Positions 309 through 60,850 of a stretch of DNA of 64,000 nucleotides are shown one piece after another. The stretch's first letter is position 1. Every line of letters starts with the position of its first letter. The translations under genes and the position numbers were made by a program. The stretch is taken from positions 79,933 through 143,932 of IMG/VR virus record IMGVR_UViG_3300042502_001732; one strand, written 5' to 3'. The DNA comes from a virus. Below the pieces are notes generated by a model, which saw only the letters and a program-made list of their open reading frames with translations, did not search any database and was not told the origin of the DNA.

Positions 309-1145
309 ATGAAAAGCTTTGAAAATTTTTACGAAAACTATACAAACGAGTCCGAATTAAATGAAGGATTCAAAGAGAATTTAATAAATTCATTACTGGC
401 ATTGTTTAGTATGGGAGCCGCTGTTTATGAAGGAAATTATGTTCTTAATTTCTTAAACAATCAACCAGCCCCAATGGAACAAAAAATCGATGCTTTAAAT
501 CAAGTAAAAGACCAAACAGACAATATAAAGATTAAAAAAGCCGTTGATGATGCCATTCAAAAAATAAATCAACCAGCTCAAAAAGTAAAAGAAAACATCA
601 CTGGGGAAAAATCTAAAATATTAGATCTCGCTGTAAAACTTACATTGCCAAGTGAAATATTAGGAACCAATATATATGATAAAGTGAACGATAGTTTTAT
701 GAGACCATATCTTGATGACAAAGGATATTGGACGATTGGGGTTGGTCATTTATTAGGTAGCGAAGCTAAGAAAAATTTTTGGATACAAAATAGAGCAAAG
801 CAAGGAAAATCAGCCACTTTATCAAGACCAGAGGCGCTGGCTCAATTTAAACAAGATCTTGAAAAACATCATAATCTAGCACAAAAGAAATTCCAAAAGG
901 AATGGCATAAATTTCCAAATGAACTCAAAGCGGTGTTAGTAGACATATCATTCAGAGGAGATCTTGAGAAAAAAGGATTAGGTGATTTCGCATTCGTTGA
1001 ACTTTTAAAACAAGGAAAATATAAACAAGCAGCGAAAGAATATTTGGATCACACTGAATATAAATCAAGAATGAAAAAGGATAAACCAGACGGTGTTGTG
1101 AAAAGAATGAACAGAAACGCTGCTATTATATCAAAAACGACATAA
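309..1145 (+). CDS. T4-lysozyme-like (GH24) muramidase with N-terminal extension
   Basis: A 278-residue protein. The C-terminal 175 residues resemble T4 lysozyme: PYLDDKGYWTIGVGHLL matches the T4 segment holding Asp20 and Thr26. The residue aligned to the catalytic Glu11 of T4 appears to be Asn with Asp beside it, so activity is uncertain. The first 100 residues are an extension: MKSFENFYENYTNESELNEG contains an L-N-E site like those cut by T4 prohead protease, followed by a hydrophobic stretch (about residues 27-50) and a helical linker. This suggests a virion-associated wall hydrolase rather than the lysis endolysin, which is the amidase at 31.4-32.2 kb. Confidence 0.8.
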   Translation: MKSFENFYENYTNESELNEGFKENLINSLLALFSMGAAVYEGNYVLNFLNNQPAPMEQKIDALNQVKDQTDNIKIKKAVDDAIQKINQPAQKVKENITGEKSKILDLAVKLTLPSEILGTNIYDKVNDSFMRPYLDDKGYWTIGVGHLLGSEAKKNFWIQNRAKQGKSATLSRPEALAQFKQDLEKHHNLAQKKFQKEWHKFPNELKAVLVDISFRGDLEKKGLGDFAFVELLKQGKYKQAAKEYLDHTEYKSRMKKDKPDGVVKRMNRNAAIISKTT

Positions 1146-7065: not shown

Positions 7066-7266
7066 TTACTGGTGGCCAGAGTAGTTTACTGGTTCGTCAG
7101 AGTCAACCTTGACGCACCAGCACTTCTTGGCTGTTTTCTTCTGGTAGTCAGTCCATGGCTTTGGGCCAAAGGCAGCTTCCCAAGCTGCCTTTTCTGTTGG
7201 GCCATCGCCCAGATTGCAATGTCGAAGGCAATTGATGCCCGATTGTCCTTTGATGATGTATTTCAT
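7066..7266 (-). CDS. Small Cys-containing protein, 66 aa
   Basis: Not recognised. Four cysteines in two pairs (NCLRHC and KCWC) could bind a metal. Flanked on both sides by the class 3 element; the upstream copy is just before the ATG. Confidence 0.5.
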   Translation of the reverse strand: MKYIIKGQSGINCLRHCNLGDGPTEKAAWEAAFGPKPWTDYQKKTAKKCWCVKVDSDEPVNYSGHQ

Positions 7267-7291
7267 GGCGAAACTATTATGATCTAGTTTT

Positions 7292-40815: not shown

Positions 40816-41142
40816 TGGTGGATGTGTGGAGGATCGAACTCCAGTCCATGACTTCTCGGCAATATACTTCTACAATTTATTGATTGATGTTAGGACAATC
40901 ACAACCTAGATTGTTGTCGAGCAATCCCGCATCAATATTCGAATCGATGAGTCTATTATATTTTCGATATACAACTATCCGACCCTACTCTGTACCAACG
41001 CATGTTATCGGAGTTGATGCGTTGGTGCGGTTATGCCGCGAGAGCTAGTGTATCTTTTTCGTTTTTCTCTTGCACTTAGAGTCGTGCAGACTGTGCATTG
41101 CATATATTGCTTCAAATGTCATGTCGAAACCATGTCACACCC
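40816..41142 (-). ncRNA. ssrA: tmRNA (ssrA) encoded by the phage
   Basis: 327 bases. Acceptor GGGTGTG / CACATCC with encoded CCA, T-arm TGGAG-TTCGATC-CTCCA, and the 5' segment GTTTCGACATG typical of tmRNA. A reading frame at 41031-41075 encodes VQEKNEKDTLALAA-TAA; the ending ALAA is the degradation tag recognised by ClpXP. In the GCA frame usually used as resume codon the tag would be longer and lack ALAA. It would rescue stalled ribosomes and tag products. Confidence 0.9.
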
Positions 41143-55236: not shown

Positions 55237-55316
55237 TGGTTGCGGGGGTGGGAGTCGAACCCACACCGAAGCCTAGCTTATGAGACTAGTTCAGCACCAC
55301 TACTGACTGCCCCGCG
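55237..55316 (-). tRNA. tRNA-Met(CAT), initiator-like
   Basis: Loop CTCATAA. The acceptor is CGCGGGG / CCCCGCA, leaving a C1-A72 mismatch, the hallmark of initiator tRNA. The three G-C pairs expected in the anticodon stem are absent, so initiator identity is only probable. Confidence 0.8.
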
Positions 55317-55328
55317 ATTGAAAATTGA

Positions 55329-55439
55329 GCCGTCTAGAGAGGCGACATAGACACATTCCCGTACGCACCCGCATATGCAGTCCTGCACGTCATTTGTGTC
55401 TATGTACCGGGCATGGAGCCCGTGCACCTCTCTAGCGGC
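55329..55439 (-). ncRNA. Unassigned highly structured RNA between tRNAs
   Basis: About 111 bases. GCCG-TAGAGAGG pairs with CCTCTCTA-CGGC at the ends, ACATAGACACA with TGTGTCTATGT inside, and CACGGGC-TCCAT-GCCCG forms a side hairpin. The pairing is far too extensive for chance. It has no tRNA features. Function unknown. Confidence 0.65.
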
Positions 55440-55445
55440 AAAGTT

Positions 55446-55519
55446 GGTAGAGGTACAAGGATTCGAACCTCGACAAACAGAATCAAAATCTGTGGTGCTA
55501 ACCGTTACACTATACCTCT
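55446..55519 (-). tRNA. tRNA-Gln(TTG)
   Basis: AGAGGTA / TACCTCT, loop TTTTGAT, ACCA. Confidence 0.92.
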
Positions 55520-59715: not shown

Positions 59716-60239
59716 GGTTTGGTGTTTGTTGTTTAAAAGTATCCTCAGTGCTTTACAGCTTCAATTGGGGCTGAGGAGCCTCCCAGGTTTCTATCACCTC
59801 CGAATTGAACGGACTTTTGAATAATATTCTTATAGGCCACTACCAGGTCATGACTACTGGCTTTGCGATAGAGAAGGTTTTAAAATCTTATGTCGTTATT
59901 CTATTTGTATTTGTTGTTGTTTTTTTTGGAAATGGCACCGCAGGCTATGGAATTGCACCATGAAACTTTTTAACGCTCTCCCTGCGGACAAGAGGCTCGT
60001 TCCTTTTATCTCTGATTTCGTTTGCAACCTCCATCAGTAAATTTGTTTTTTGAAAATTTCCCGTGCCTAACTTTTGTTGCTGATGAAACACGGGCATGTT
60101 CGGTTTCCTTACTATTGCTGAGCAATCCTGGGGTCTTCCTATCATCAGAAACGGCTGTGTGAGTCCATCTGCACATTTAATTTTCTTATCTTCTCGAGCT
60201 GCAGTCTCTTACGATTGGGGCATTACCTTAAATTTGTTT
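59716..60239. other. Non-coding region with tRNA-like fragments
   Basis: No credible gene over 500 bases. Holds inverted repeats (CAATTCGGAGG region near 59770-59815; CCCGTG ... CACGGG at 60059-60095) and the mini tRNA-like element at 59933. Possibly remains of a former tRNA array. Confidence 0.5.
59933..59988 (-). ncRNA. Minimal tRNA-like element (acceptor plus T-arm)
   Basis: CCGCAG pairs with CTGCGG, a T-arm-like ATGG-TGCAATT-CCAT precedes the 3' strand, and the end reads GCCA. D- and anticodon arms are missing, so this is either a decayed tRNA or a small tRNA mimic. Confidence 0.3.
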
Positions 60240-60352
60240 TTGAAAGTGGTGTCCCCCGCGAGGAGTCGAACCTCGTCTCCCAGAGTTCATTCTAGATCAT
60301 TGACTAAGCTATTCATGTTTCGGTGGCGTTAACTCCAACCGGTCACATGCCC
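60240..60352 (-). ncRNA. tRNA-like 3' domain with good T-arm
   Basis: CGAGG-TTCGACT-CCTCG followed by CGGGGGAC-ACCA. No matching GTCCCCC 5' acceptor strand was found upstream, and the middle part has no clear anticodon arm. A related 3' end occurs at 10588. Confidence 0.35.
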
Positions 60353-60519
60353 GGGATTCACTTAGTGTTTGTTCTAGAAGATCTACTGGCGGGCCAATAC
60401 TTCAGGGGAAAATTGTTTTTTGAAAGTGGTGAGCAGTTTTAAGAGATGCTCAACTCTCTAGAGCGGTTTAACGAGTGCCCGAAGCTCAAAGCTTTTTAAA
60501 AGATGTTCAACTCTTGTGA

Positions 60520-60606
60520 TTACCAACTACCGTTCATGGTTTGGATAAAGATGACGAACCAAACTGCTGCATTGATTCCGATGAAAATTCCTAATGTTTC
60601 TTTCAT
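60520..60606 (-). CDS. 28-residue membrane micropeptide
   Basis: MKETLGIFIGINAAVWFVIF then IQTMNGSW-TAA. Paralogue of the peptide at 6881, here driven by an early promoter, which makes it one of the best-supported micropeptides in the window. Confidence 0.65.
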   Translation of the reverse strand: MKETLGIFIGINAAVWFVIFIQTMNGSW

Positions 60607-60660: not shown

Positions 60661-60850
60661 CAACTTTTTTCAAAAAAGTGAAAAAAGGCCCCGAAGTTAG
60701 GCCCCGTATAGAGAAATCTAGTGCTCCCAAGGTCTAAAAATGTCAAATTTACGACTTTTTATGCAAAAAATACCCACCAAAGTGTGCATCGTTGAGAGGC
60801 ATGGTGGGTCTGCTCGAGAGTTATATTTGACAAAAATCAAAAGAGTTTAT

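Follow-up and report, generated by a model that had tools for sequence, protein, structure and literature searches.

What lies between two tRNA genes of a large phage, where 111 nucleotides fold into long helices and belong to no gene that is readily recognised? The locus belongs to a 64,000-nucleotide stretch of viral DNA, here called the window (positions 79933-143932 of the 143,932-bp record G000 of an uncultivated virus), in which ARAGORN places all 21 tRNAs (21/21) on the minus strand. The major capsid protein encoded by the record is of T4 type (PF07068, E 1e-85), with its nearest named relatives in cyanophages; because these are only 34% identical, we regard the phage as a deep T4-like branch.

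A structured RNA between two tRNA genes

A first-pass annotation, made from the letters alone, had proposed an unassigned, highly structured RNA at 55329-55439, without naming a strand. The helices it described are present there, and the neighbours are indeed two tRNAs, tRNA-Gln(TTG) on the 5' side and, 12 nt downstream, an initiator-type tRNA-Met(CAT), referred to below as tRNA-fMet. The element is read from 55439 to 55329, because every neighbouring tRNA is encoded on the minus strand and the fold is better there. Its minus-strand fold reaches -61.4 kcal/mol (z -7.2), and 0 of 200 dinucleotide shuffles were equally good; the plus strand is weaker (-50.7 kcal/mol, z -5.1). Ten tRNAs precede the element in the window, and the whole record holds one copy of it. 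From strand and spacing, the element is likely co-transcribed with the tRNAs, and its processing together with them, as the annotation had suggested, is plausible.

The overall shape in our model is a three-way junction with a closing helix P1, a hairpin P2 and a variable arm P3 (Table 1; element position i corresponds to window position 55440-i on the minus strand). P1 joins element positions 1-14 with 97-111 and contains one bulge, P2 joins 18-22 with 28-32 around the loop UCCAU, and P3 joins 35-45 with 85-95. At the tip of P3, P4 pairs positions 51-55 with 76-80 and P5 pairs 60-63 with 68-71. The G33-C96 pair at the junction is predicted by RNAalifold.

Table 1. The element and its neighbours in window coordinates.
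Feature	Positions	Strand	Remarks
Whole three-way-junction RNA	55329..55439	-	111 nt, 5' end at 55439; fold z -7.2; model R1 133.3 bits, E 3.9e-30; covariation
P1 5' arm GCCGCUAGAGAGGU, closing helix	55426..55439	-	double changes in 13/14 P1 pairs, 24 members
P1 3' arm GCCUCUCUAGACGGC	55329..55343	-	A at 55333 bulged
P2 hairpin CGGGC-UCCAU-GCCCG	55408..55422	-	most conserved part; presumed recognition element
Junction GU	55406..55407	-	G33 pairs with C96 (55344), U34 bulged
P3 5' arm ACAUAGACACA	55395..55405	-	sequence fully replaced in L036 and L088, pairing kept
P3 3' arm UGUGUCUAUGU	55345..55355	-	pairs with P3 5' arm
P4-P5 tip CGUGC AGGA CUGC AUAU GCGG GUGC GUACG	55360..55389	-	internal loops; double changes in P4
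Linker UCAAUUUUCAAU, element to tRNA-fMet	55317..55328	-	conserved in relatives (alignment)
tRNA-Met(CAT), ends CGCGGGG...CCCCCGCAACC	55237..55316	-	ARAGORN; probably initiator type (C1:A72), judged from its ends
tRNA-Gln(TTG), upstream neighbour	55445..55519	-	ARAGORN; not kept as neighbour in relatives

Compensatory changes support the fold

The annotation had named a covariance search in related phages as a check, with a lack of covariation as the refuting outcome; double changes were found instead. Among 8 distinct close sequences they occur in 13 of the 39 pairs, a value that 0 of 500 shuffles equalled, while slid controls on the same 8 sequences gave 0 to 3 such pairs. RNAalifold recovered the same fold unprompted. 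In an alignment of 24 members, double changes reach 31 of the 39 pairs and 95% of the cells are paired, although this alignment was fitted to the model and the 8-sequence test is the cleaner one. Compensatory base changes supporting a single fold allow the element to be classed broadly as a phage structured noncoding RNA. The retention of G-U pairs favours an RNA over a DNA cruciform. The relatives share no conserved reading frame, and the start-like signal AGGA...AUG inside P4-P5 was rejected as a coding signal on the same ground. Judged from these alignments, the element is a real phage RNA whose shape is kept in dozens of phages despite changes in most of its paired letters.

Conservation is concentrated around P2. 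The inner four P2 pairs and the loop UYCAU are invariant across the 24 aligned members, a constancy that is partly by construction in those members whose searches required the inner P2 sequence. Members found without this requirement, through a neighbouring ClpP-like protease, model R1 or the tip, nonetheless keep GGGCUYCAUGCCC, while the divergent member L191 shows that P2 can vary, with UUCA retained. A17, G33, U34 and C96 are each identical in 24/24 members, and C96 lies outside every search pattern used.

A family in unrelated phages

In total, 46 viral contigs carry the family: 27 with class I elements (the window included), 9 with class II and 10 with mini forms (L097 included). Members are about 110 nt long in the standard form and about 60-80 nt in the mini forms. 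Searching with the P1-arm pattern returned copies in other viral contigs, some identical and some diverged; the true copies were all in tRNA clusters, whereas chance matches fold otherwise, and six loci (L004, L007, L010, L014, L015, L016) were set aside as chance matches without a hit to model R1. Contigs fetched through the ClpP-like protease, with the element sequence unused, yielded more copies, one of which (L036) has a wholly different P3 that still pairs. The P4-P5 tip pattern added L087, L088, L089, L091 and L093, and the P2 pattern added L097, in which the tip is absent and P3 is a plain hairpin. Model R1 then detected class II copies in L041, L042, L043, L046 and L063 (E 4e-6 to 1e-4), in which the P1-P2 plan is unchanged and P3 has more internal loops. 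The core pattern ANGGGCTYCATGCCCNGTR gave class I elements in L121, L122, L124, L125, L139, L141, L142 and L143, a class II element in L145 and mini forms in L135, L149, L151, L152, L153 and L154. A P2-requiring search found the class II copies of L115 and L117, a P2-independent class II pattern added L191 (P2 GGGGGC-UUCA-GCUCCC), and L119, L123 and L129 are further members. Most tRNA-cluster members carry the P4-P5 tip; a similar one occurs in class II L117 and L145, and none in the mini forms.

Matches to the core pattern, both in genomes and at about 20 viral loci, were rejected as chance, with at most 25 bits with model R2 against at least 36 for members; the length of the helix flanking P2 separates the two groups less well than the covariance model. 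Across 84,980 bacterial and archaeal species genomes, the core motif gave 11 matches, about the chance expectation, none of them with the family fold and the best reaching at most 25 bits with R2. Whole-record model searches of T4, KVP40 and Pseudomonas phage Milchi found no copy, and BLAST with five different members as query returned no match covering the element in named phages. Literature occurrences of the P2 sequence were all unrelated.

Each of the 23 carrier records searched whole, including records of 138-176 kb, contains exactly one copy. Four carriers of mini forms (G031-G033, G035) lack a T4-type gp23, and the terminases of G032 and G035 share only ~25% identity with those of Bacillus, Microcystis and Clostridioides phages, which indicates that the family spans unrelated phages. 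By these sequence comparisons the element is one member of a wide family not confined to tRNA clusters, which goes beyond what the annotation, working from one stretch, could see.

Genomic position of the element

In T4-like members, the element is always within or adjoining a tRNA operon, usually just 5' of tRNA-fMet. In that place it is preceded variously by tRNA-Gln, by tRNA-Glu (L121, L122, L124, L139, L141), by an intergenic stretch or by a promoter. The 600 nt upstream of the L036 copy contain no tRNA. In L087, L088 and L143 the element comes after the operon leader, with promoter-like sequence visible in L088 and L143, and in L143 it is directly followed by tRNA-Tyr in place of tRNA-fMet. 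In L153, an L088-type promoter and leader lead directly to tRNA-fMet, leaving the usual element site cleanly empty, and a different mini copy sits behind tRNA-Gly. Among the phages that lack a T4-type gp23, L119 has the element behind a promoter, and L123 and L154 have it downstream of a stop codon and with a U-tail; in the L135 group a small HTH gene precedes it. A single copy per genome in a changing place is best explained by action in trans, although a single copy could also be compatible with a cis element or an origin.

Comparison with known RNAs

The element remained without an Rfam family: none of 4227 families matched at gathering score, matches at E<=10 were at chance level, and its relatives likewise had no family above the gathering cut-off. 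A tRNA or tRNA-like identity was rejected, as the annotation had held, since there is no cloverleaf with a T-arm, no anticodon arm and no call by ARAGORN or RF00005. Its reading that tmRNA and intron features are missing also stands: Rfam gathering cut-offs were not reached for tmRNA or group I intron, nor for GOLLD, ROOL and pRNA.

By location, the nearest precedents are T4 RNAs C and D (species 1 and 2), which are likewise small non-tRNA RNAs of a T4-like tRNA cluster. Identity with them was rejected, as models R1 and R2 have no match in T4 and the folds differ: rnaC has a T-arm and another fold, and rnaD is weakly structured. The phi29-type pRNA is a three-way junction of about 110-120 nt, present once per phage and acting in trans. 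The element resembles it in size, junction and copy number, but has no Rfam match and no visible complementary loop pair, and its carriers are T4-like or other large phages. ROOL and GOLLD, phage or prophage RNAs found by covariation near tRNA islands (PMC12286853), are alike in setting and in manner of discovery; they are far larger, cage-forming and different in sequence and fold, and prophages, too, carry them, whereas in the bacterial genome set the core motif of this family was matched no more often than chance would give. The abiF RNA (RF03085), another phage-borne small RNA and present in the same window, is a 37-nt hairpin motif that shares neither sequence nor shape with the element. 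The element thus founds a new family within phage structured noncoding RNAs, distinguished by a new shape and by unusual positional freedom.

Proposed action in trans and its alternatives

The fold is maintained by compensatory changes, and the element occurs in single copy, independently of fixed neighbours and in unrelated phages. Its transcription, processing and action in trans we infer. Our main reading, at a probability of about 0.5, is that of a phage-encoded noncoding RNA which is released from a longer transcript and acts in trans as a stable RNA. Mechanistically, the element would be transcribed within a longer transcript, here the tRNA operon, and would fold on its own into the three-way junction. 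The RNases that excise tRNAs would release it, while in some phages its own U-tail would form the end. P1 would hold the ends of the molecule together, and P3, with or without the P4-P5 tip, would serve as a scaffold of free sequence. The recognition platform would consist of the GC-rich P2, its loop UYCA(U) and the G33-C96/U34 junction. Its partner would most likely be a protein rather than an RNA target, because the kept loop of 4-5 nt is too short for specific base pairing alone. More tentatively, the family may be an undescribed class of trans-acting phage RNAs, found in unrelated large phages and not in bacterial genomes, whose P2 forms a ribonucleoprotein with a host or phage protein needed during infection.

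Processing or antitermination in cis remains the main rival, and we consider it doubtful but serious. The element would then be a leader, processing or antitermination module of the tRNA operon, shielding the transcript or guiding the cuts at tRNA-fMet, with a boxB-like P2 and boxA acting on RNA polymerase. In several phages (L143, L088, L087, L115) it is indeed the promoter-proximal RNA, and both the conserved linker to tRNA-fMet and the usual place just 5' of this tRNA in T4-like members would also be expected; L153, however, has no element before tRNA-fMet, L143 keeps the element without that tRNA, and in the window ten tRNAs lie upstream. P2 has the size of boxB (5-bp stem, 5-nt loop). In L041, L115 and L097 a boxA-like TGTTCTTTAA/TGTTCTTTGA precedes the element by 30-34 nt, and L191 and L145 have a boxA-similar CTCTTTGACA; these features recall lambda nut, HK022 put and the rrn boxA-boxB. 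None of the 13 class I loci tested, window included, has a boxA match, and unlike those systems the element is a three-way junction with a closing helix. Lambda nutR follows a small HTH gene, a position comparable to that of the element in the L135 group, but the U-tailed copies at transcript ends (L153, L123, L154) are wrongly placed for antitermination.

A decoy or antitoxin-like RNA directed against a host defence protein, mimicking a tRNA anticodon arm or the RNA of a defence system, is unlikely. P2 (GGGCUYCAUGCCC) loosely resembles the initiator tRNA anticodon arm, GGG-CUCAUAA-CCC, but a U at tRNA position 37 and a CAU out of register are at odds with such an arm, L191 has no CAU, and the mini forms are not bound to tRNA-fMet. 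A solitary abiF RNA, the kind that partners the AbiF toxin, is present in this phage without an AbiF protein, and abiF RNAs neutralise AbiF in trans (PMC12373285); mimicry would nevertheless call for a bacterial RNA to be mimicked, and the bacterial and archaeal genomes yielded only the chance matches described above. Even less probable is that the element is just a spacer, a terminator or a mobile inverted repeat and has no specific RNA function. In favour of this are the U-tails of some members (L123, L154, L153) and a P1 resembling terminal inverted repeats; against it are conservation of P2, G33-U34-C96 and A17, covariation in all helices and one copy per record. A retron-type RNA (a1/a2 repeats, msr, msd) shares the plan of long complementary ends, a short hairpin and then a long one; with no reverse transcriptase (PF00078) in record G000, where controls were positive, and no Rfam match, it is refuted for this record, unless the enzyme is encoded in the missing part or in the host.

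Action as a separate molecule, by a previously unlisted phage RNA, is the most likely reading. Few phage noncoding RNAs have been described from tRNA clusters: T4 RNAs C and D, GOLLD and ROOL. This family is a well-supported addition to them. Compared with these, it is short, offers a clear presumed recognition hairpin, is found in unrelated phages and includes minimal forms of 60-80 nt. Its partner should thus be catchable with a short bait RNA. Its natural loss and re-appearance in one tRNA operon makes cis versus trans action directly testable.

Other RNA features near the element and in the window

Five members (L041, L115, L097, L191 and L145) have a boxA-like TGTTCTTTAACA/CTCTTTGACA 30-40 nt upstream of the element, in L191 with a hairpin before it. 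The arrangement is like that of rRNA operon leaders, and Nus-type antitermination may operate in phage tRNA operons. A second conserved block, CTCAGGAACnGTAGCGATGCTCTCGG...GTTCCTGTCTTCGGACTGCCGTGGTTGTATGC, lies by tRNA-fMet (L041 14760-14990; L046 11070-11180; L191 around 690-860, minus strand; L120 1120-1220), between the element and this tRNA in L041, L046 and L191 and after it in L120; it is probably another structured RNA. In L097 (about 7215-7285) and L117, a conserved CTTCAGAnTTTCGGTGATCTGAAGTAAAAGAAAACACCG directly 5' of tRNA-fMet could form an H-type pseudoknot. Also in L097 (6410-7214), a homing-endonuclease-like ORF follows a 5' tRNA-Glu fragment and is followed by the full tRNA-Glu, a partial duplication of the target.

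Elsewhere in the window, a phage-encoded tmRNA (40816-41142, minus strand; RF00023, 84 bits) lies outside the tRNA cluster. The solitary abiF RNA (60772-60808, minus strand; RF03085, 47.1 bits, gathering 37) has a U-tail and lies between two protein genes. No Abi_2 protein was found in the whole record carrying it, and 14 further records, from relatives or from other carriers, gave no abiF RNA. It might serve the phage as a decoy or antitoxin against the AbiF of the host. The gene-poor region 59760-60525 (minus strand) contains about five units with ACTTTCAAAAAACAAATTT-type linkers, possibly a pseudo-tRNA or small-RNA array, and all but one of these fold no better than shuffled sequence. The remaining unit is an unannotated tRNA-like RNA of 162 nt (60247-60408, minus strand; fold z -2.3), with no ARAGORN or Rfam call. 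It has CCCC/GGGG acceptor-like ends, a T-arm GACGAGGTTCGACTCCTCG, a 3' ACACCA and a long non-tRNA middle, a plan that resembles T4 RNA C.
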